Of a stretch of DNA of 64,000 bases, positions 17,472 through 30,024 are shown piece after piece. The DNA comes from Yaniella halotolerans DSM 15476. Lineage in GTDB: Bacteria; Actinomycetota; Actinomycetes; Actinomycetales; Micrococcaceae. Location of the stretch: contig NZ_ATVQ01000001.1 in NCBI RefSeq assembly GCF_000420805.1, positions 434,001 to 498,000 of the forward strand, read 5' to 3'. Made by a program: the position numbers and the translations under genes. The notes beneath the pieces are model-generated. The model saw nothing but the letters and a program-made list of their open reading frames with translations, was not told the origin of the DNA and made no database searches. Each line of letters opens with the position of its first letter. Position 1 is the first letter of the stretch.

Positions 17472-17918
17472 CTAGGCGTGGTCACCGGAGTATGCCGGAC
17501 CCGCGTGGTCTTCTAGTTCCCGGCGGTACGCAGCATCATGCGGTCTGGGCTTACCAGTGACAGTATCAACAACGACCATGGTCGTCTCTGTGTAGACGCA
17601 CGGTTGGTCATTTTGGACCAGCAGATGACTCACAACGAACGAGGTGTTGCCGATACGTGAGATCCACACCCAGATCGTCGTCTGGCGCCCGTACTGTACT
17701 TCGCGATCGTACGTTGTGGTGAGCGCGCGGACAGCACGTCGATAGCCTGTCCCATCAGGGGTCGCTCCGGTCCATTGCTGCATGGCACGAACCCGGGCCT
17801 CTTCAAACAGAGTCATGATCCGCACATTATTGACGTGACCGTTGACATCTTGATCCGACCACCGAATCTGCACCTCAATGTCCGTGGCATACGACGTAAT
17901 TTCTTGGTAATCAGACAT
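17472..17918 (-). CDS. Acyl-CoA thioesterase, 4-hydroxybenzoyl-CoA thioesterase-like hotdog fold
   Basis: A 148-residue single hotdog domain. VQIRWSDQDVNGHVNNVRIM holds the conserved Asp near the start of the central helix, as in YbgC/4HBT enzymes. Longer readings upstream would overlap the divergent formate dehydrogenase gene; the ATG at 17918 has GGGAG upstream. It sits directly ahead of the glutaryl-CoA dehydrogenase-like gene, 15 bp apart, so the pair are probably co-transcribed. It should hydrolyse a short or aromatic acyl-CoA in the cytoplasm. Confidence 0.85.
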   Translation of the reverse strand: MSDYQEITSYATDIEVQIRWSDQDVNGHVNNVRIMTLFEEARVRAMQQWTGATPDGTGYRRAVRALTTTYDREVQYGRQTTIWVWISRIGNTSFVVSHLLVQNDQPCVYTETTMVVVDTVTGKPRPHDAAYRRELEDHAGPAYSGDHA

Positions 17919-18048
17919 GTGGCGTTGCTCCCTGTTTTCTCTGGCTGTCAGCGCTATTTTCCAGCTATTCTGCCACCCAAAACCACTACGAAAAACTCCC
18001 ACAGTTTGGGCCTCCCCACAAGGCAACACCTCTGCTAAGGTGGGACCC

Positions 18049-21000
18049 ATGTCACGGTTCTCAATGCTCGGATGGCCGGTCTTCCGCCAGACCAAGTCCA
18101 AAGATAAATATGGGCGCGGTCCCAGCGTGGAGTCGCCAAAATACGAGAATATGCGACCTCGCACCGAGGATGCAGACGATGTCGTCCAGAGTGTCTGCCC
18201 GTACTGTGCCGTTGGTTGTGGCCAGCGCATTTACGTTAAAGACAATGAAGTCATCCACATTGAAGGTGACCCTGACTCGCCGATTTCGCGTGGCCGATTG
18301 TGTCCAAAGGGCGCTGCCTCAGAGCAGCTAGTCAATACGCCGTCACGTCAGAAAACCGTACTTTACCGTGCACCGCGAGCTACCGATTGGGAAGAAATCG
18401 AGCTCGAGAAGGCCATGGATATGATCGCGGATCGCTTCTTGGAAGCACGCGAAAATCATTGGGAAGATTACGACGAGGAAGGTACTCCCGTCAATCGCAC
18501 CATGGGCATTGCGTCCCTCGGCGGTGCAACCATTGATAACGAAGAAAACTATCTGATCAAGAAGCTGTTCTCGGCCGCAGGCGCGGTACAGATCGAGAAC
18601 CAGGCTCGGATTTGACACTCCTCCACAGTTCCTAGTTTAGGATCTTCTTTTGGGCGTGGCGGTGCCACCCAGCCATTGCAAGATATGGCGAATGCAGACC
18701 TGATTTTGATTCAGGGTTCCAACATGGCTGAATGTCACCCTGTTGGGTTCCAGTGGGTTACTGAAGCCAAGCAGCGTGGTGCCAAGGTGATTCACGTTGA
18801 CCCGCGCTTTACGCGCACGTCCGCGGTTGCTGATAAGCACATCACCATTCGTGCCGGCTCTGACATTGTGTTGCTGGGCGCTCTGATCAACCACATGATC
18901 GAAAATGATTTGTGGTTCAAGGATTACGTTACGCACTACACCAATGCCGCCCACATCATTTCAGAAGGATTCGCCGGGCCAGAAGATCTGGACGGACTGT
19001 TCTCTGGCTACGATGACGAGCTGCAAGGCTATAACAACGAAACCTGGCAGTACGAGGAAGATCCTGATGCGGCAGATGGCATCGCCAAGGATATGACCCT
19101 GCAGCATCCTCGGTCGGTCTTCCAAATCCTGCGGCGTCACTACTCGCGGTACACACCGGAAGCCGTTGAGGACATGGCCGGCATTAGCCAAAAAGACTTC
19201 AAGTACTTGGCCGATGCCTTTGCCGAAAACTCCACTCGGGATCGGACAACTTGCATCGCGTATGCCCTGGGTTGGACACAGCACTCGATGGGTGCCCAAT
19301 TCATTCGAACAAGCGCCGTCCTACAGCTGCTCATGGGGAACATGGGTCGTCCCGGTGGTGGCATTATGGCACTGCGTGGCCATGCCACCATTCAGGGTTC
19401 CACGGATATCCCAACGCTATTCAATCTATTGCCCGGCTACCTGCCCTTCCCGGTTGCTGGCAAGCATGACACCCTCCAGGACTACTTCGACGAGTCATTT
19501 CCGCAAGACCAAAAAGGGTTTTGGCATAACGGAGACGCCTATATGATTTCGTTGCTGAAAGCCTGGTTCGGCGATGCTGCAACGGCAGAAAACGATTATG
19601 CATATCATTACTTGCCCCGTCTGACCGGTGCACATGGCACGTATCAAACGCTCATGCGCATGTTCGATAAGGGTGTGGACGGCTACTTCGTGCTGGGCCA
19701 GAACCCGGCTGTCGGGTCTGCCAATGGTCGTATGCAGCGCATGGGTATGGCGAACCTCAAATGGATGGTCGTGCGCGACTTCCAGCAAATCGAGACCGCC
19801 ACCTGGTGGCGCGATGGTCCAGAGATCCAGAGCGGTGAGTTGAAGACCGAAGAAATTGATACTGAAGTCTTCTTCATGCCCGCAGCCAACCACACAGAAA
19901 AAGCCGGCACGTTTACCCAGACACAGCGTTTAGTCCAGTGGCGTCACCAGGCTGTAACGCCACCCGGAGACGCACGCTCTGAATTGGAATTCTTCCACGA
20001 CCTCGGCAAGCGGCTCCGGGAACGCCTCCAAGACTCGACAGACCCGAGGGATCGTCCTCTGCTGGACATGACCTGGGACTACCCTGTTGATGAGCACGGT
20101 GAACCCGACGCCGAAGCCGTCATGAAAGAAATCAACGGCTTCTACACGACTGGTCCCGACGCGGGCAAACCGCTGGACAACTTCAACCAGATGAAGACCG
20201 ATGGTTCCACCGCCGGCGGCTGTTGGATTTACGCCGGTGTCTATGCTGGTGGGGTCAACCGTGCTGCACTTCGTGTACCCGGTGATAAACAGGACGAAAT
20301 GGCTCAAAAGTGGGCTTGGGCTTGGCCTGCGAACCGTCGAATTCTCTACAACCGTGCTTCAGCCGACCTAGACGGCAAACCGTGGTCGGAGCGCAAGAAG
20401 CTCGTCTGGTGGGATGAAGACGCCACGAAGTGGGTCGGTCACGACACCCCGGACTTCCCCATCGACCGTGCACCCAATGCCAAGTCAGAAAAGGGAGTCT
20501 TCGGCCCGGATGCACTGTCCGGAGATGATCCATTTATCATGCAAACCGATGGTAAAGGCTGGCTCTTTGCCCCCATGGGCATGAAGGACGGACCACTACC
20601 GACGCACTACGAACCTGCTGAGTCACCGGTAAGTAACACCATGTACCCACAGCAGGAGTCACCTTCTCGCTTGCTCATTACAGCTGAAGGAAACCAACTG
20701 GCCCCTGCTTCCGGGAACCCGGGATCAGAAGTCTACCCGCACGTGTTCACCACGTACCGTCTCACTGAGCATCACACCGCAGGTGGTATGAGCCGATTCC
20801 TGCCATATTTGTCCGAGTTGCAACCCGAAATGTTCTGTGAGGTTTCCGAAGAACTCGCCGAAGAATACGGATTGGAATCTTACGGCTGGGCGACCATTAT
20901 TTCACCGCGCGGTGCAATCGAGGCCCGGGTCCTGGTCACCCAGCGGATGAAGCCGGTGCGCGCCGGCGGCAAGACGATCCACCAGATCGGTCTGCCGTAT

Positions 21001-21306
21001 CACTGGGGCGTCGGAAAAGAGGCCCTCATTACCGGTGACGGGGCCAATGACCTACTGGGGATGACACTGGATCCCAACGTGTTCATCCAATCGGCCAAAG
21101 CCGTGGCCTGCGCTATCCAACCGGGGCGGCGTCCACGGGGCGAAGCCTTGGTGGAGTTCGTCAACGAATACCGCGAACGGGCTGGTATTACCGAAATGAC
21201 CGGTCAAAGCAGGCTCACCTATGAACGTGATCCGGAAACCATGGAAATTGCCGAACCCCCGACACTGTCTGAACCTGAGCATCACGAAGGAGACAAACTT
21301 GTTTGA
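18049..21306 (+). CDS. fdhA: Formate dehydrogenase alpha subunit, selenocysteine-containing
   Basis: A 1085-residue molybdo/tungsto-bis-PGD oxidoreductase read through an in-frame TGA at 18613-18615, decoded as Sec189. Residues 50-85 bind a [4Fe-4S] cluster (Cys50, Cys53, Cys57, Cys85). The context NQARI-Sec-HSSTVPSLGSSFGRG is the active-site motif of FDH-N-type enzymes, where Sec ligates the metal and the next His takes part in catalysis. The C-terminal pterin-binding domain contains GGKTIHQIGLPYHWG. The ATG at 18049 follows AAGGTGG; no twin-arginine leader is present, so the subunit is probably cytoplasmic. The Fe-S and NrfD-like subunits follow with overlapping frames. Sec biosynthesis genes follow within 8 kb. 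A gene finder that treats TGA as stop will split or truncate it. Confidence 0.95.
18613..18660 (+). promoter_or_regulatory. Sec UGA codon and SECIS-like mRNA hairpin
   Basis: Downstream of the TGA (18613-18615), TCCTA at 18630-18634 pairs with TAGGA at 18638-18642 around a GTT loop. The loop begins with G and lies 19 nt after the UGA, inside the spacing known for bacterial SECIS elements (about 16-37 nt, G among the first two loop bases). CCAC at 18623-18626 and GTGG at 18656-18659 could form a lower stem. The downstream selB gene encodes the factor expected to bind it. Confidence 0.75.
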
Positions 21307-22351
21307 CTTCAGAGAAAAACCCGGCCAGCTCATCGATGCCCACGGTCAGGACACCGAACGCAAGGGATTCTTCACCGACACCTCGATTTGCATTGGTTGT
21401 AAAGCGTGCGAGGTCGCTTGTAAAGAGTGGAACGAGGTGCCCATGGACGGCAACCTTGAACTGCTGGAATCATCATACGATAACACCGGTGATCTCGGGG
21501 CCAATACCTGGCGGCACGTCGCGTTCATCGAGCAAGACGAGCAACAAATTGAAAAAGCCCGTGACTCCGGTCAAAAACTCGTGAGTCTCGGGATGCCTTC
21601 CATCGGTGCCCCGGAAGCTCGTCAAAAAGAGAGCGCCAAACATATTGGTATGCCAGAGTTTGGCTCCCCCGGTACCCGCATCAAAGAAAAAGTGGATAAC
21701 CCGCCGAACCCAGACACCCCGGAATTCCGGTGGTTGATGAGCTCGGATGTGTGCAAACACTGTACCTTCGCCGGGTGTTTGGACGTCTGCCCAACGGGCG
21801 CCCTATACCGCACCGAGTACGGCACCGTAGTCGTCCAAGACGATATTTGTAATGGTTGTGGGACCTGCGTTGCCGGTTGTCCTTTCGGTGTTATCGAACG
21901 CCGCGATACAGGCACGATACATACCAAACCAGACCGGGTAGATTCCCGCTACGCCATGGACGTCAAAAACGAGGGTACCGCCAATAAATGCACGCTGTGC
22001 TATGACCGTCTAGTGGACGATCAGCAGCCAGCCTGTGCCCAAACCTGCCCGACCACCTCAATCAAGTTTGGCAATCAGTCTGAAATGGTCGAAAGCGCGG
22101 TAGAACGCGTTACCACCATGCACGCACAGGGCAGCACAGAAGCCCGCCTCTATGGTGCCAATCCAAACGACGGTGTCGGCGGCATTGGTTCGGTCTTCCT
22201 GCTGCTGGACGAACCAGAAGTCTATGGACTCCCACCAGATCCACAGGTTCCGACCAAAGACCTACCGCACATGTATAAGAAGGTCGGTATCGCTGCGGCC
22301 GGAATGCTGGCTGCTGCGGCGACCGCTTTCGTAGGAGCGCGCAAAAAGTGA
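21299..22351 (+). CDS. fdhB: Formate dehydrogenase iron-sulfur subunit
   Basis: A 350-residue electron-transfer subunit with four ferredoxin-type cysteine clusters: CIGCKACEVACKEWNE, CKHCTFAGCLDVCPTGAL, CNGCGTCVAGCPFGVI and CTLCYDRLVDDQQPACAQTCP. A single C-terminal hydrophobic segment (VGIAAAGMLAAAATAFVG) ending in RKK would anchor it in the membrane facing the cytoplasm. I place the start at TTG 21299, which overlaps the end of the catalytic subunit by 8 nt and follows AAGGAG; an in-frame ATG upstream lies deep within fdhA. It passes electrons from the formate site to the membrane subunit encoded next. Confidence 0.9.
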   Translation: MFDFREKPGQLIDAHGQDTERKGFFTDTSICIGCKACEVACKEWNEVPMDGNLELLESSYDNTGDLGANTWRHVAFIEQDEQQIEKARDSGQKLVSLGMPSIGAPEARQKESAKHIGMPEFGSPGTRIKEKVDNPPNPDTPEFRWLMSSDVCKHCTFAGCLDVCPTGALYRTEYGTVVVQDDICNGCGTCVAGCPFGVIERRDTGTIHTKPDRVDSRYAMDVKNEGTANKCTLCYDRLVDDQQPACAQTCPTTSIKFGNQSEMVESAVERVTTMHAQGSTEARLYGANPNDGVGGIGSVFLLLDEPEVYGLPPDPQVPTKDLPHMYKKVGIAAAGMLAAAATAFVGARKK

Positions 22352-23448
22352 CCCTTTCTGATTTCGACTCATATCGGCCCGCGAATGAAGGTCGCCGTAA
22401 AAAGAAACGCAACCGCCCTGCTGGCAATGGTCGCCGGCGCGGTGGTGGCGGCGATGGCGCGCGCGAAATGTCGATGGTCGATGACGTCGAATTCAGTGAT
22501 TCCTACTACGGTCGCCCGATTGTTAAACCACCACCGTGGGACGATAAGATCTCGGCCTACCTTTTCCTGGGCGGGGTCGCTGGCGGTTCAGCCATGCTCG
22601 CCGTCGGAGCACAGGCAGCAGGACTTGAAGCACTACGACGCAATAGTCGGCTCACCGCCCTGGGCGCCACCATCGGTGGTACAGGCTTTTTGATTCTCGA
22701 CCTCGGACGCCCAGAACGCTTTTTACACATGATGCGTACGTTCAAACCCTCCTCTCCCATGAACATGGGAACGTGGATACTTGGAGGATTTGGCACTGCG
22801 GCTGGTGTAGTTGCGGCCATCGAAGTCGACCGGCTGACCGGCGAAAACCTTCCGCTGGGCCCGCTTCGGGCGTTACTGCACTGGATAGAAAAACCTACCG
22901 GTGCCCTCGCCGCCCTCTTCGGAGCACCGCTAGCCTCCTACACCGGGGCGCTGCTGGCCGACACCGCCGTCCCCACCTGGAATGCGGCCAAAGACAATCT
23001 GTCATATCTTTTCGTGTCATCAGCAGCCATGGCGTCCTCCGGGGTCGCGATGATGACGACCCCGGCGTCGCAGACCCGTCCTGCACGGGCACTGGCCACC
23101 CTCGGTGCGGCCGCTGATCTGTATTTTGCTGAAAAGCTCACCGAGCCGATGCACCCAGCAGAGGCCGAACCACTGCAAACCGGTCGGGCCGGCAAAAAAC
23201 TTCGCTGGGCCAAAGGCCTCACGATTGCCGGCGGGATCGGAGCAGCACTGCTGGGCGGCAACCGGGTAGCTGCCATTGTCTCCGGTGCAGCCCTGGCTAC
23301 CGCTTCCCTACTGACCCGCTCAGGCGTGTTGGAAGCCGGTATCGAGTCGACGAAAGATCCCCGCCACGTCGTGGAACCACAAAAAGCTCGCCTCGAAGCA
23401 CGCCGCGCGCAAGGCATTGTCGACGACTCAATCACGACCGTAGGTTAA
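22348..23448 (+). CDS. NrfD/PsrC-like membrane subunit of formate dehydrogenase
   Basis: A 366-residue integral membrane protein. The N-terminal 60 residues are basic and soluble (RRKKKRNRPAG, then Gly/Arg-rich), followed by WDDKISAYLFLGGVAGGSAM, the typical first-helix region of NrfD/PsrC quinone-interacting subunits, and ILDLGRPERFLHMM, a conserved loop of that family. Further helices follow to about residue 320. The GTG start overlaps the fdhB stop (GTGA). This replaces the cytochrome b subunit of E. coli FDH-N and should deliver electrons to menaquinone. The stop overlaps the convergent selD stop by 4 nt (TTAA). Confidence 0.85.
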   Translation: MTLSDFDSYRPANEGRRKKKRNRPAGNGRRRGGGGDGAREMSMVDDVEFSDSYYGRPIVKPPPWDDKISAYLFLGGVAGGSAMLAVGAQAAGLEALRRNSRLTALGATIGGTGFLILDLGRPERFLHMMRTFKPSSPMNMGTWILGGFGTAAGVVAAIEVDRLTGENLPLGPLRALLHWIEKPTGALAALFGAPLASYTGALLADTAVPTWNAAKDNLSYLFVSSAAMASSGVAMMTTPASQTRPARALATLGAAADLYFAEKLTEPMHPAEAEPLQTGRAGKKLRWAKGLTIAGGIGAALLGGNRVAAIVSGAALATASLLTRSGVLEAGIESTKDPRHVVEPQKARLEARRAQGIVDDSITTVG

Positions 23449-24449
23449 CGCACCTCGACGACCCCGGCACGATCAGTGGTGTAACCAATCACCGGATGAC
23501 CCGGAAGTTCACCAACCACGAGCAACCCACCCGAGGTTTGTGCATCGGCCAGCACCAACAGATCTTCTTCGGTCAGGCCACTGCCGGTCTCGATATGCGG
23601 CGCAACCCAATCCAGGTTGCGTCGCGTACCGCCCGAAATAAAACCATCGCGCAGCGCTTCGGCCGCGCCATCAACCAGCGGAACCGCAGCCTTATCGACC
23701 ACCGCACCCACGTGGGAGGCACGCATCATCTTATACAGATGGCCCAACAGCCCGAATCCAGTCACATCGGTCGCGGCTTTGAGTCCGGCAACCACACTCT
23801 GTTCTGCGGCCGCCTTATTCAACGTCGTCATCGTATCGATCGCAGCTTGGAAGACCTCACCGGTTGCTTTGTGCCGGTTATTCAGCAACCCCAAACCAAT
23901 CGGTTTCGTCAGCGTCAACGGCAAACCGGCCTCGGCTGTGTCATTGCGAAGGAGCTGATCTACCTTTGCCGTACCGGTAACGGCCATACCGTATTTCGGC
24001 TCTGGATCATCGACCGTATGCCCACCAATGACCGGACATCCGGCTTCACGCCCGATGGCTAACCCACCGGCCAGCACCTCGGACATCATCTCCGCCGGCA
24101 GCACACCGCGTGGCCAGCCCATCAGGTTGATGGCCACGATCGGTTGGCCACCCATCGCATAAATATCACTGATCGCATTGGCGGCGGCGATCCGACCCCA
24201 GTCATAGGCCGAGTCGACCACCGGCGTGAAAAAGTCGGCGGTCGATAAGATCGCGGTGTCACCGTCAAGATGCACCGCAGCGGCGTCATCGCCATCATCA
24301 ACGCCCACCAGGACATTGCCATAATCCTGGCCGGCCAACTGGGCGACAGCGCCTTCAAGTTCACCCGGCGGGATCTTACAGGCACACCCACCACCTGAGG
24401 CCGTGGTGGTTAAACGCGGAACGGAAGCTTGTTCTAAAATTTCGGACAT
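23445..24449 (-). CDS. selD: Selenophosphate synthetase
   Basis: A 334-residue enzyme that makes selenophosphate from selenide and ATP, the selenium donor for Sec-tRNA. SGGGCACKIPP carries the catalytic Cys22 and Lys25, equivalent to Cys17/Lys20 of E. coli SelD; cysteine rather than Sec is used. STADFFTPVVDSAYDWGRIAAANAISDIYAMGG is the ATP-metal core, with its conserved Asp residues. It lies downstream of the GNAT-AAA gene on the same strand (81 bp apart) and converges with the formate dehydrogenase operon. Confidence 0.97.
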   Translation of the reverse strand: MSEILEQASVPRLTTTASGGGCACKIPPGELEGAVAQLAGQDYGNVLVGVDDGDDAAAVHLDGDTAILSTADFFTPVVDSAYDWGRIAAANAISDIYAMGGQPIVAINLMGWPRGVLPAEMMSEVLAGGLAIGREAGCPVIGGHTVDDPEPKYGMAVTGTAKVDQLLRNDTAEAGLPLTLTKPIGLGLLNNRHKATGEVFQAAIDTMTTLNKAAAEQSVVAGLKAATDVTGFGLLGHLYKMMRASHVGAVVDKAAVPLVDGAAEALRDGFISGGTRRNLDWVAPHIETGSGLTEEDLLVLADAQTSGGLLVVGELPGHPVIGYTTDRAGVVEVR

Positions 24450-24530: not shown

Positions 24531-25814
24531 CTAGAGCCGAGCGTAGGATTCGATATCTTCATCGAAGGCGTCAATATCGAGCGGTGAGACCGTGGCACGC
24601 GTGACAGATAGTGCGTCGATATAGCTGGTCGTCGTCAGTTCATCGGCGGGACGCTGCGAACCATTGCCATTGAGCGCACGCGCCAGGGCTTCCTGGGAGG
24701 CCCGTCGGGCGGCGTACTCAATGTCGGCGGGTGTCATACCCTCGCTGGCCTGGGCCAGGTCGTCGAAATTGATTTGCTCGGCGACCGATTCAGGGACATA
24801 ACGCTGCCAGATCGCGATGCGGGCTTCGGTATCGGGCAGGCCGATCGGAATGACATAGTCGAAGCGACCGTGCCGCAAAAATGCCGTGTCCAGTGCGCGC
24901 ACAAAATTGGTGGCACAGATCAGCAACAGTCCGTCTCGGTCGCGAAACTCGGCGACCTGTTTGAGCAGTTCATTCGTCACGCCCTGCGTGGGCGACGGCG
25001 GATCACCGCGACGTTGGGAGGCGACTTCTTCGACCTCATCGATAAAGACCACGGCGTGTTCCAGATCGTAGATCGCCTCGAAGGTGGTGCGAAAAGCATT
25101 GGGGAGTCCGCCGGGAAGCTCGGCCAGTCGTGAGGGGAACAGCTCGACGAAGGGCCAGCCCAGTCGTGAAGCGACCGCTTTGGCAAACGTCGTCTTGCCG
25201 GTTCCGGGTGGGCCGAACAGCATGACCGCACGGGGTGGCACCACCCCGAATTGATCGGCCAGATTCGGTTGTGACAACGGGGTAATCAGCCGCTCTTCAA
25301 GAAGGCCCTTCTCCTGCTGCATACCGCTGACCGCGTTCCAGAGACGGCGCGGCAGCACACGTCCACCCAGTTCTCGGAGTTTGTCCAATTCCCGACGCTG
25401 CACCGGCATGCCCCGTTCCAAATACCGCAGCGGGTTATGAATTTCGAAGCCATTGGCCGTTAGGGCGGCGGCTGATTCGTCCTCGAGTGACGTGAGAATC
25501 GAAAGTTTCGATAACCCCAGGGGCGCGATGCGCCGTTCCAGGGCGTCCAAGAGGCGGCCGCCAAGTTCGGGACCGGTGGAGTTTTCGAGTCCGAAAAAGA
25601 CAATCCAGCCTTGGGCGTGCGCGGCGCGGCCGACGACCGCACCAATGACACGATCGTATTCGGTGGCCACCAGGGCATAGTCGGCTTGGCATGACGCGAT
25701 GACCTCTGGCAATGAGTACACCGGCGGGGTGCCGCGCTGCTTGGCTCGCTCCCAGAGCCGCACGATGGCGTCAAGATCGTCGTCGTGAAATTCTCGAACG
25801 TGAGCGCGTTGCAT
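24531..25814 (-). CDS. GNAT-like domain fused to a classical AAA ATPase, within the selenium locus
   Basis: A 427-residue two-domain protein. Residues 1-135 have a GNAT-type acetyltransferase layout: VREFHDDDLDAIVRLWERA, DRVIGAVVGRAA, then LSKLSILTSLEDESAAALTANGF. Residues 165-427 are an AAA module with Walker A GPPGTGKTT, Walker B VVFIDEVEEV, sensor-1 LLICATNF and the arginine-finger segment RHGRFDYVIPIGLPD, closest in style to FtsH/p97-type ATPases but without protease or membrane segments. The ATG at 25814 starts the recognisable GNAT fold; an earlier ATG adds 25 unlike residues. It lies between tRNA-Sec and selD. A function is not known to me; remodelling of a Sec-pathway or FDH assembly partner is only a context-based guess. 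Confidence 0.75.
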   Translation of the reverse strand: MQRAHVREFHDDDLDAIVRLWERAKQRGTPPVYSLPEVIASCQADYALVATEYDRVIGAVVGRAAHAQGWIVFFGLENSTGPELGGRLLDALERRIAPLGLSKLSILTSLEDESAAALTANGFEIHNPLRYLERGMPVQRRELDKLRELGGRVLPRRLWNAVSGMQQEKGLLEERLITPLSQPNLADQFGVVPPRAVMLFGPPGTGKTTFAKAVASRLGWPFVELFPSRLAELPGGLPNAFRTTFEAIYDLEHAVVFIDEVEEVASQRRGDPPSPTQGVTNELLKQVAEFRDRDGLLLICATNFVRALDTAFLRHGRFDYVIPIGLPDTEARIAIWQRYVPESVAEQINFDDLAQASEGMTPADIEYAARRASQEALARALNGNGSQRPADELTTTSYIDALSVTRATVSPLDIDAFDEDIESYARL

Positions 25815-25914
25815 GAACGCACTGTAGCAGCTGACCGGTGTGCGGTCTAGAGTGCTGAAATATGTGGGCGCGCAGTGATGCTGCAGCACGGCAAACGTGA
25901 TAGTTTGATTTTTT

Positions 25915-26010
25915 GGAGGCGTTAGGGTTCCTGGTGGTCCCCGCGGTCTTCAAAACCGACGAGACCAAGTAGCTTGGTCTGGCGGGTTCGATTCCCGTCC
26001 GCCTCCGCCA
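25915..26010 (+). tRNA. selC: tRNA-Sec (anticodon TCA)
   Basis: A 96-nt tRNA gene with encoded CCA. The acceptor GGAGGCG pairs with CGCCTCC before G-CCA. The anticodon loop CTTCAAA presents TCA. The variable arm is long, AGACCAAG-TAG-CTTGGTCT, an 8-bp stem characteristic of selenocysteine tRNA. The T arm is CGGG-TTCGATT-CCCG. It stands immediately before selA, on the same strand, and reads the UGA found in fdhA. Confidence 0.96.
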
Positions 26011-26027: not shown

Positions 26028-27359
26028 GTGAGTTCAGATAGTCCCGCCACTTCAGACCCGCGCCGCGCGATCCCCTCGACTGATCGGCTGTTAGCGCTAC
26101 CGGAGGTCGTGGCTGCCGGTCAGCGATTGGCTGCGCAGGTGATTCGCCGTTTGATCACGGACATCCAGGCTGCTGCTCGACGCGGTGAGCTACCGCCAGA
26201 CGCGGTGGTACCCCGGGTGATCGAGGCTGTGCAAACCACGCAGCCAAGCGAGCTGTCGGCGGTGCTCAATGCCACCGGCGTCATTATTCATACAAATTTG
26301 GGGCGTGCCCCGTTATCCGATGCGGCACGCAATGCCCTGTTGGCTGCGGCCGGTTACGTGGATCTTGAACTGGACCTTGACGACGGCAAACGCAGTAAGC
26401 GCGGTACTTGGGCCAAAGCCGCACTGCTGGCCCAAGCACCCGATGCCGACGACGCGTTAATCGTCAACAATGGTGCCGCGGCACTGTCGCTGGCAACGAC
26501 TGGCCTAGCCGTAGCTCAGGGCACACCGGAAGTGGTGCTAAGTCGCGGTGAACTGGTCGAAATTGGGGCGGGGTTCCGTCTTCCCGATCTCATCACGTCG
26601 ACCGGTACACGATTGGCCGAGGTGGGCACGACGAATCGCACCACGCTGGACGACTATCGCGGTGCGGTCACTGAGACCACCGGCGCGCTACTGAAAGTGC
26701 ATCCGTCGAATTACTGGATCGGTGGTTTCAATTCGAGTGTGACGACGAAACAGCTGGCCACCCTGGCGGCCGAGCAAGCACTCCCGTTGATCGTAGATGT
26801 CGGGTCAGGACTATTTGAATCCGATTCGGTCCTGCCGGATGAGCCGACCATTGGCCAGGCACTGCGCGATGGTGCCGACGTGGTGATTGCCAGTGGCGAC
26901 AAGCTACTGGGCGGTCCACAAGCCGGTCTGTTACTGGGTTCTCGCACCGCGCTACAGAAGCTTGCCGCCCATCCTCTGGCGCGCGCTTTCCGAGCCGATA
27001 AGTTCACGCTGGCGGCGCTAGAAGCCACGCTCAATGCGCCCTCTACCCCGGTGTACGACGCGCTGCACGCTGATGGCGATGAGCTGTATGCCCGAAGCCG
27101 CCGGATTGCCGAAGCACTTGACGCCCAAGTGGTCGCCCACGAGGGACGCGTTGGCGGTGGCGGCGGAGCCGGCGTGCCGATTGCCGGGTGGGCGGTGCGC
27201 CTCCCCGAGCATTTCGCCCATCCGTTGCGTACCGGCAGTCCGGCGATTTTGCCCCGGGTTGCCGCTGGTCGCTGTCTGCTGGATCTCCGGTGCGTGCCGG
27301 CGGCTGAGGATGAGAGGGTGCTGCAGCGGCTCCGGCAGATCGCGGAGGGTGTAGCGTGA
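26028..27359 (+). CDS. selA: L-seryl-tRNA(Sec) selenium transferase
   Basis: A 443-residue PLP enzyme converting seryl-tRNA(Sec) to selenocysteinyl-tRNA(Sec) with selenophosphate. VIIHTNLGRAPLS and GDKLLGGPQAG (PLP lysine Lys292, E. coli Lys295) are diagnostic. The N-terminal helical domain includes the known family pattern IPSTDRLL. The start is GTG at 26028 with AAAGG upstream, 17 nt after the tRNA gene; longer readings would include tRNA sequence. It overlaps selB by 4 nt (GTGA). Confidence 0.96.
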   Translation: MSSDSPATSDPRRAIPSTDRLLALPEVVAAGQRLAAQVIRRLITDIQAAARRGELPPDAVVPRVIEAVQTTQPSELSAVLNATGVIIHTNLGRAPLSDAARNALLAAAGYVDLELDLDDGKRSKRGTWAKAALLAQAPDADDALIVNNGAAALSLATTGLAVAQGTPEVVLSRGELVEIGAGFRLPDLITSTGTRLAEVGTTNRTTLDDYRGAVTETTGALLKVHPSNYWIGGFNSSVTTKQLATLAAEQALPLIVDVGSGLFESDSVLPDEPTIGQALRDGADVVIASGDKLLGGPQAGLLLGSRTALQKLAAHPLARAFRADKFTLAALEATLNAPSTPVYDALHADGDELYARSRRIAEALDAQVVAHEGRVGGGGGAGVPIAGWAVRLPEHFAHPLRTGSPAILPRVAAGRCLLDLRCVPAAEDERVLQRLRQIAEGVA

Positions 27360-29152
27360 CCGAACAGTTTGTGGTGGCCACGGCCGGACACGTCGATCAT
27401 GGAAAATCTGCCCTGGTGCGTGCGCTGACCGGTACTGAAACCGACCGGTGGGCCGAAGAACGCGAGCGCGGCCTCACCATTGATCTTGGGTTCGCGGAAA
27501 TGTCCTTGCCGTCTGGACGCTCGGTGTCGTTTGTCGATGTGCCGGGTCATGAACGGTTTGTTGGCAATATGCTAGCCGGACTCGGGCCGGCACCGGTCGT
27601 ATGTTTGGTGGTGGCCGCAGATGAGGGGTGGCAGGCCCAAACCTCCGAACATCGCGATGCGATCAAAGCCCTGGGCATTTCGAGCGGGGTCGTGGTGATT
27701 TCTCGGCTCGACTTAGCCCCGGACAATGTTGAGGCAGTGACCGCTCAGATTCGACACGAGCTGGCCGATACGGCGCTGGCCGATGCACCAATTGTGGCGA
27801 CCTCAGCCATTGAGTATCGGGGTCTCGATGAGCTGCGCACCGTCATGGATACGGTATTCGATCAGTTGGCTGCTCCCGATCTCACCGAACCTATCCGATA
27901 CTGGATTGACCGTGCTTTCCCGGTCAAAGGGGCCGGCACCGTAGTGACCGGAACGCTAGCCGACGGGACCTTGACCGTCAATGACCGGCTCGAACTGCTG
28001 TCCAAAGACAGCTCCGAGGTGACGGTCAGGAGTTTGCAAAGTCACGGGAGCTCTGCCAACGAACTGGTCCCGGTCACCCGTGCCGCGGTGAATCTGCGTG
28101 GTATCACCGCCGATGCTGTGGCTCGTGGCGATGTGTTGGTGACCCCCGGTGCCTGGTTCAACACCGATGTCATCGACGTGGCTGGCACCCCGGATGTTGA
28201 TTTCACACAACTCCCCCAAGAATTCTCCGTCCACATCGGGACGGCCACCGTGTATGCGCACTGCCGTCCACTGGGCTCCGAATTTGCTCGGCTGTCCCTG
28301 GATCGTAGCCTGCCATTACACATCGGTGATCGATTCTTGCTGCGCGGCACCGGACAACGGCTCATTACCGGCGGCGCAACCGTCGTGGATGTCCAACCTC
28401 CTGCCCTGCGTCGTCGTGGGGCAGCCAAACAGCGCGCCGAAACACTGGCCAACCTCACGGCAGAAAATCATTTGGCACTGGAAGTCCGACGTCGTCGGGC
28501 GGTTGATCGGTCGATGATCACGGCCATGGGCATTGCGGTCCCCGACCCGCTGGCCGATGATGTGCTGGTGCATGACCGGTGGCTGGTTGATCGACAGGCA
28601 CTTGACTCGTGGCGACAGCAACTGCGCAATAGGGTCGTCGCCCAGTATAAGCGGGACCCAAGCGCCGGAGGCATCACCGAACAGGCCGCCGTCAACGCCC
28701 TGGACCTGCCGGACCGCAGCCTATTGTCCCTGGTCGTGACCGAGGCCAAGCTACAGCAATCGGCTGGGCGGATTGCGGATCCGGCACTGCGACCATCCCT
28801 CGGAGCGGCCGAAGCCGCAGTGGCTGAATTGGAACAGCGCTTTATCAACGATCCGTTTGCGGCACCGACCGCCGATGACCTGGACGAGCTGCAGCTTGGC
28901 GATAAAGAACTCGCCGCTGCCGCGGAACAACAGCGCTTATTGCGGCTCAAGGGCAACATCGTGCTGAGCCCCAAGACCCCGGCACTGGCGATGCGGCAGA
29001 TCGTACAACTCGAGCAACCCTTCACCGTCTCCGATGCACGCCAAGCATTAGGCACCACCAGGCGAACCCTGATCCCGCTGTTAGAACACCTCGATGCGCG
29101 GGGTTGGACCGAACGACTCGACGGCAACCTTCGTCAGGTCTCAGGGCGCTAG
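27356..29152 (+). CDS. selB: Selenocysteine-specific elongation factor
   Basis: A 598-residue GTPase delivering Sec-tRNA to the ribosome at UGA codons. The G1 motif GHVDHGKS is at residues 11-18, switch II is DVPGHERF, and the NKxD-type motif is degenerate (SRLDLA), as in SelB. Domains II and III follow (GTVVTGTLADG near 200). The C-terminal 230 residues are winged-helix repeats that bind SECIS RNA in characterised SelB, ending DARQALGTTRRTLIPLLEHL. GTG start overlapping the selA stop indicates coupled translation. Confidence 0.96.
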   Translation: MTEQFVVATAGHVDHGKSALVRALTGTETDRWAEERERGLTIDLGFAEMSLPSGRSVSFVDVPGHERFVGNMLAGLGPAPVVCLVVAADEGWQAQTSEHRDAIKALGISSGVVVISRLDLAPDNVEAVTAQIRHELADTALADAPIVATSAIEYRGLDELRTVMDTVFDQLAAPDLTEPIRYWIDRAFPVKGAGTVVTGTLADGTLTVNDRLELLSKDSSEVTVRSLQSHGSSANELVPVTRAAVNLRGITADAVARGDVLVTPGAWFNTDVIDVAGTPDVDFTQLPQEFSVHIGTATVYAHCRPLGSEFARLSLDRSLPLHIGDRFLLRGTGQRLITGGATVVDVQPPALRRRGAAKQRAETLANLTAENHLALEVRRRRAVDRSMITAMGIAVPDPLADDVLVHDRWLVDRQALDSWRQQLRNRVVAQYKRDPSAGGITEQAAVNALDLPDRSLLSLVVTEAKLQQSAGRIADPALRPSLGAAEAAVAELEQRFINDPFAAPTADDLDELQLGDKELAAAAEQQRLLRLKGNIVLSPKTPALAMRQIVQLEQPFTVSDARQALGTTRRTLIPLLEHLDARGWTERLDGNLRQVSGR

Positions 29153-29195
29153 TACATTGCACAGCGGAGACAAAAACCGCACCCTGCCGCCCATT

Positions 29196-29205
29196 TCGTA
29201 TACGA
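29196..29205. promoter_or_regulatory. Putative GntR operator, copy 2
   Basis: TCGTATACGA, identical to the core of the palindrome at 7752-7763, lies 34 bp upstream of the hpaH start. The 11-mer TCGTATACGAT is shared by both sites, which supports common control of the two homoprotocatechuate clusters. Confidence 0.7.
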
Positions 29206-29238
29206 TTAGGGGCAGGCTTTTCTACTCAAAGGAGTCCG

Positions 29239-30024
29239 ATGTTAGATCACGAAACACATGTCAAAATTGCTGACGAACTGCACCAGGCCAACATTGATCG
29301 GAAACCGGTCGAACTGCTGACCAAGCGCTATCCGGGCATGGTCATTGAAGATTCCTATGCGATTCAGAAAATTTGGGCAGATCGCCAAATTGAAACCGGA
29401 CGCCGCAAGGCCGGCCACAAGATCGGTCTTACCTCGAAGGCGATGCAGGCCGCAACCGGTATCGATGAGCCCGACTACGGCGTCATCTTTGACGACCAAG
29501 TCTTTGAATCCGGCCACGTTTTCGAGTGGAAGAAATACACCCACCCGCGCATCGAAATTGAGCTGGCCTTCGTATTGAAGGACGACCTGCGTGGACCAAA
29601 CGTCAATATTTTCGACGTCCTGCGGGCAACCGAATACGTCACGCCGGCGCTCGAGGTGCTCGACGCCCACATCGAGATGGAAGGTCGCACCATCATCGAC
29701 ACCATCTCAGACAACGCCGCCCTGGGTGCCATGGTGTTGGGTGGCAGCCCGGTCAAACCAGAAGACGTTGATCTTCGTTGGGTTGGAGGTGCCCTGTGGC
29801 GCAACCAGGAAATCATGGAAACCGGTCTATCCGCCGGCATCCTGGGCCATCCGGCAAACGGTGTCCACTGGCTGGCCAACCGGCTGGCCGGTCACGATGA
29901 TTACCTCGAAGCCGGCGAAATTATCCTGGCTGGTTCCTTCACCCGTTACATGTGGGTGTATGAAGGCGACTCGGTGTTTGCCGACTTCGGGCCGCTGGGC
30001 ACCATCGGCGTCCAGTTCGACTAA
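29239..30024 (+). CDS. hpaH: 2-oxohept-3-ene-1,7-dioate hydratase
   Basis: A 261-residue hydratase of the MhpD/HpaH family within the FAH superfamily. YAIQKIWADRQIETGRRKAGHKIGLTSKAMQ is the N-terminal family signature; DYGVIFDDQVFESG and HPRIEIELAFVLKDDL provide the Glu/Asp metal ligands. It adds water to the open-chain product of the FAH-RraA enzyme. AAGGAG precedes the ATG. Together with the aldolase 28 bp downstream it forms a second cluster of the pathway, separated by about 16.5 kb from hpaD, right after selB. Confidence 0.92.
   Translation: MLDHETHVKIADELHQANIDRKPVELLTKRYPGMVIEDSYAIQKIWADRQIETGRRKAGHKIGLTSKAMQAATGIDEPDYGVIFDDQVFESGHVFEWKKYTHPRIEIELAFVLKDDLRGPNVNIFDVLRATEYVTPALEVLDAHIEMEGRTIIDTISDNAALGAMVLGGSPVKPEDVDLRWVGGALWRNQEIMETGLSAGILGHPANGVHWLANRLAGHDDYLEAGEIILAGSFTRYMWVYEGDSVFADFGPLGTIGVQFD

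Follow-up and report, generated by a model that had tools for sequence, protein, structure and literature searches.

A formate dehydrogenase gene with an in-frame UGA, very probably read as selenocysteine, beside a complete set of sel genes in Yaniella halotolerans

The 64,000-nucleotide stretch of Yaniella halotolerans DSM 15476 analysed here (the window) raises the question of how a long frame that resembles a formate dehydrogenase gene and has a stop codon inside it is to be read. Yaniella is a member of the Micrococcales. The frame (18049-21306, + strand) opens with the ATG at 18049 and ends with a TGA at 21304-21306, and its sole internal stop is a TGA at 18613-18615, preceded by the residues NQARI and followed by HSST. 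An earlier sequence-only reading had given these positions and had taken the gene to be a selenocysteine (Sec)-type formate dehydrogenase read through UGA; the positions match the sequence, and the frame is otherwise free of stops. It also expected standard gene calling to miss the gene. A mechanical list of open reading frames does split the frame in two (17917-18615 and 18676-21306), but a curated NCBI model, NF041513, exists, so that this expectation holds in part.

Joined through the UGA, the frame encodes a protein of 1085 residues identified as an fdnG-type, Sec-containing formate dehydrogenase alpha subunit (fdhA). Over its full length it scores 1825 bits against NF041513 (NCBIfam formate_DH_Act), where the cut-off is 1400; TIGR01553 (formate dehydrogenase-N alpha) gives 966 bits with a cut-off of 814. 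Molybdop_Fe4S4, Molybdopterin and Molydop_binding domains are present. The two best matches among solved structures are 1h0h and 1kqf; the latter, FdnG of Escherichia coli FDH-N, covers query residues 46-991. In both, the alignment runs through the UGA position, and each shows opposite it the letter X, which denotes a modified residue. The source genome contains a single full fdhA match and two weak ones elsewhere (32% and 27% identity). Among the best 80 of 428 related loci, the nearest named one is from a Yaniella metagenome assembly, with 95% identity over residues 46-1085.

E. coli FDH-N carries a Tat signal and has a cytochrome b partner. The window differs from it in having an NrfD-like membrane partner and no RR pair at the N-terminus of FdhA (18049-18190), as judged by a simple count of such pairs. 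An RR pair lies within the first 45 aligned residues in 16 of 101 distinct fdhA genes. The lack of an N-terminal RR together with the NrfD-like partner suggests that the active site of the alpha subunit may face the cytoplasm, whereas that of E. coli FDH-N is on the periplasmic side.

Genes for the other two subunits follow on the same strand. The 4Fe-4S beta subunit (fdhB, 21299-22351) matches TIGR01582 (FDH-beta) with 154.6 bits, below the cut-off of 334.7; the open reading frame is longer, beginning at 21221, and the start is probably the TTG at 21299, which has GGAG upstream. The NrfD-like membrane subunit (fdhC, 22348-23448) matches PF03916 with 69.9 bits (cut-off 25.8). On the opposite strand lies the selenophosphate synthetase gene (selD, 23445-24449, - strand; TIGR00476, 366.8 bits), whose product contains the sequence GGGCACK and which we take to be of the Cys type. 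The tRNA-Sec gene with anticodon TCA (selC, 25915-26010, +) was found by ARAGORN and by RF01852 (73.6 bits, E 3.4e-13). It is followed by selA (26028-27359, +), for which the listed frame scores 391.1 bits against TIGR00474; the listed TTG start at 25974 would fall within the tRNA gene, and translation is likely to begin at the GTG at 26028. The Sec-specific elongation factor gene (selB, 27356-29152, +; TIGR00475, 298.7 bits) includes a winged-helix domain (PF09107 SelB-wing_3, 51 bits). The bacterial Sec insertion set selA, selB, selC and selD is therefore complete in the window, all of it less than 8 kb downstream of fdhA, and none of it figured in the earlier reading. The maturation protein FdhD is encoded elsewhere in the genome.

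Two further genes lie in or beside this cluster. Between selD and the tRNA-Sec gene, a frame at 24531-25889 (- strand) encodes a protein of 452 residues, GNAT-like in its N-terminal part and carrying an AAA ATPase domain, which PADLOC IetA models match. The gene was not found in any other compared locus longer than 9 kb. A homologue with 94% identity adjoins the tRNA-Sec gene in one genome (G110), and one with 87% identity lies about 37 kb from it in another (G073), which suggests that the gene has changed its place with respect to the cluster. Directly after selB, and overlapping it in the mechanical list, is a frame (29104-30024, +) resembling 2-oxo-hept-4-ene-1,7-dioate hydratase (343 bits, slightly under the cut-off).

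The gene order recurs among the 80 named loci, which are the best of 428 and some of which end early: fdhB and fdhC are both present in 77, selD in 74, the tRNA-Sec gene in 68, selA in 67 and selB in 58. The 12 loci with no nearby tRNA-Sec gene were considered as possible exceptions; nine of their genomes were searched whole (all but those of L048, L049 and L087), and all nine have a strong tRNA-Sec elsewhere, so these nine do not stand as exceptions.

The codon at the UGA site is TGA in all 110 fetched related rows that cover it, among them loci of Arthrobacter, Kocuria, Brevibacterium, Leucobacter and Mycobacterium. The rows include duplicates (the window itself is L001, and L004 equals L041) and are biased towards close relatives; with the named loci being the best of 428, the uniformity is partly a matter of selection by similarity. 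Cys-type fdhA paralogues (L121-L129) occur in nine genomes of the family and have TGC at the site in all nine. Six of these genomes carry both types of copy and have a strong tRNA-Sec, and in the three where only the Cys copy was found (G104, G150 and G162) there is no strong tRNA-Sec.

This association was followed through 197 genomes of the family, of which 55 have a UGA-bearing fdhA, 53 have a tRNA-Sec of at least 72 bits and 52 have both. Of the 55, 30 were read at the codon (G148 included) and 25 were assigned from a count of one TGA over the N-terminal stretch. The threshold of 72 bits sets aside matches of 47.5-48.5 bits, which exceed the Rfam cut-off and are likely to be other tRNAs; at E 0.001 the search was positive in every one of the 197 genomes and also in all 14 controls, and that tally is uninformative. 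In the three genomes with a UGA fdhA and no strong tRNA-Sec (G021, G148 and G155) the fdhA match lies close to a contig end, for G155 as judged from the match breaking off. Conversely, G110 has a tRNA-Sec and a partial fdhA, and was left out of the UGA count because its match begins after the codon.

Reading UGA as Sec in bacteria would call for a SECIS element, and the sequence-only reading had placed a hairpin with a loop G 19 nt past the UGA. A hairpin with its loop G at that distance is indeed predicted, at 18628-18644 (+), as the apical part of a bacterial SECIS with a stem of six positions and a loop at 18634-18638, and it is conserved; its stability is unremarkable. The folding energy has a z of -0.64 against shuffled sequences, 47 of 200 of which fold at least as well, and 1910 of 5000 synonymous codings are at least as stable. 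Folding alone was accordingly rejected as proof of a SECIS. The stem has one U-U mismatch (18629/18643), and its energy of -4.6 shares last place among 75 distinct sequences, whose mean is -11.9. All six stem positions are paired in 70 of the 75 and five positions in the other five, the window included.

Conservation, pairing and codon constraint support a SECIS hairpin just after the UGA. One stem pair is C-G in 69 of the 75 sequences and U-A in six, both sides being changed by synonymous codons, so that pairing is kept where the window has U-A and most relatives have C-G. Seven of the eight same-genus genomes in which the codon was read, counting that of the window, have the U-A form, which is absent from the rest of the set; the change between the two forms may have been a single event. 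Of 107 genes, 101 that are distinct and nearly full-length were compared for codon choice. All 101 use GTT for Val194, a codon whose share at 25 other conserved Val positions never exceeds 12%. For Gly198, 95 use GGA, which reaches no more than 28% at any of 72 other positions. In the Cys-type copies, the hairpin Val codon is GTT in none of nine and the six stem positions are fully paired in one of nine. On comparison of these sequences, the TGA and the letters of the hairpin are conserved far beyond chance. The Rfam model RF01989 (SECIS_3) matches 18610-18666 with 30.8 bits (E 2.2e-5 in 201 bases) and does not reach its gathering cut-off of 63, which none of six related loci searched reached either; the element is thus SECIS-like and outside the threshold of the curated model.

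The exception within the genus is G021 (L011), whose fdhA is 68% identical to that of the window and has the C-G pair. This copy may have been transferred, or may belong to another lineage. A second TGA in this gene was considered as a second Sec codon and rejected, as it is the end of the gene's own reading frame.

We give a probability of about 97% to fdhA being a functional selenoprotein gene, a reading that agrees with the earlier one and is supported by the protein family, the solved structures, the sel genes, the conserved TGA, the Cys paralogues and the constraint on the hairpin. A ribosome reaching the UGA at 18613 would meet SelB bound, with Sec-tRNA-Sec, to the hairpin directly downstream, and Sec would be inserted as residue 189, with translation ending at 21304. 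Sec would be supplied by SelD, SelA and the tRNA-Sec of the same cluster. From knowledge of the family, Sec189 is expected to be an active-site ligand of Mo or W, and FdhA, the 4Fe-4S FdhB and the NrfD-like FdhC would together oxidise formate.

The Cys paralogues have TGC at the site, one base away from TGA, and a nonsense mutation in a former Cys-type gene could have left a pseudogene of this appearance. Such a mutation is scarcely credible in a gene whose compared relatives in several genera all share the same TGA, whose frame runs open before and after that codon to give a joined protein above the 1400-bit family cut-off, and which adjoins the Sec machinery. Read-through that places Trp or Cys there instead of Sec, whether by a near-cognate tRNA or through reassignment of UGA, is just as improbable: the analysis found no support for it; UGA is not simply reassigned, since fdhA itself stops at TGA; the gene is linked to a complete Sec set; and the hairpin Val codon separates all the compared UGA copies from all the compared Cys copies.

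Somewhat less remote, though still very unlikely, is a Sec gene whose SECIS has decayed in this lineage, making insertion inefficient. The U-U mismatch and the weakness of the window hairpin point that way. Against decay, the mismatch is common to four same-genus genomes (the window, L004/L041, L005 and L006) and two Brevibacterium loci (L048 and L057), fdhA is 87-95% identical among the same-genus copies that have it, and pairing was kept at the stem pair that is U-A here and mostly C-G elsewhere. A speculative and unlikely extension of the selenoprotein reading is that SelB of the Yaniella group accepts U-U in the apical stem, SelB and hairpin having drifted together away from those of most other Actinobacteria.

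One described system for comparison is that of A. chiangmaiensis, of the genus Actinomycetospora. Strain DSM 45062 is reported (PMC7176365) to have a membrane-bound FDH1 with a Sec-containing alpha subunit of 1078 residues, encoded in one cluster with beta and gamma subunits, selA and selB, as in the window; selenite addition nearly abolished formate accumulation. It differs from the window in that selD is listed there without an FDH cluster and in having three Sec FDH systems. In Corynebacterium aurimucosum, PMC2830990 describes a recoded UGA fdnG clustered with selA, selB, selD and selC, as here, in an order called highly conserved; the window is from another genus and has the GNAT-AAA gene between selD and selC. 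For the Mycobacterium ulcerans ancestor, PMC3434033 lists a Sec-containing formate dehydrogenase and selA as absent. Among 25 families of bacterial selenoproteins surveyed in PMC1794560, FdhA counts 103 members, the largest figure among the table rows available. A search of one literature collection for Yaniella and selenocysteine found no paper.

A Sec formate dehydrogenase with clustered sel genes is a well-known arrangement in this bacterial group, and the window adds an example from the Yaniella group to this known class. For annotation, the lesson is to read fdhA through the UGA and to label the cluster as one Sec unit. Related genomes that carry both UGA and Cys copies offer a natural and clean comparison for the hairpin.
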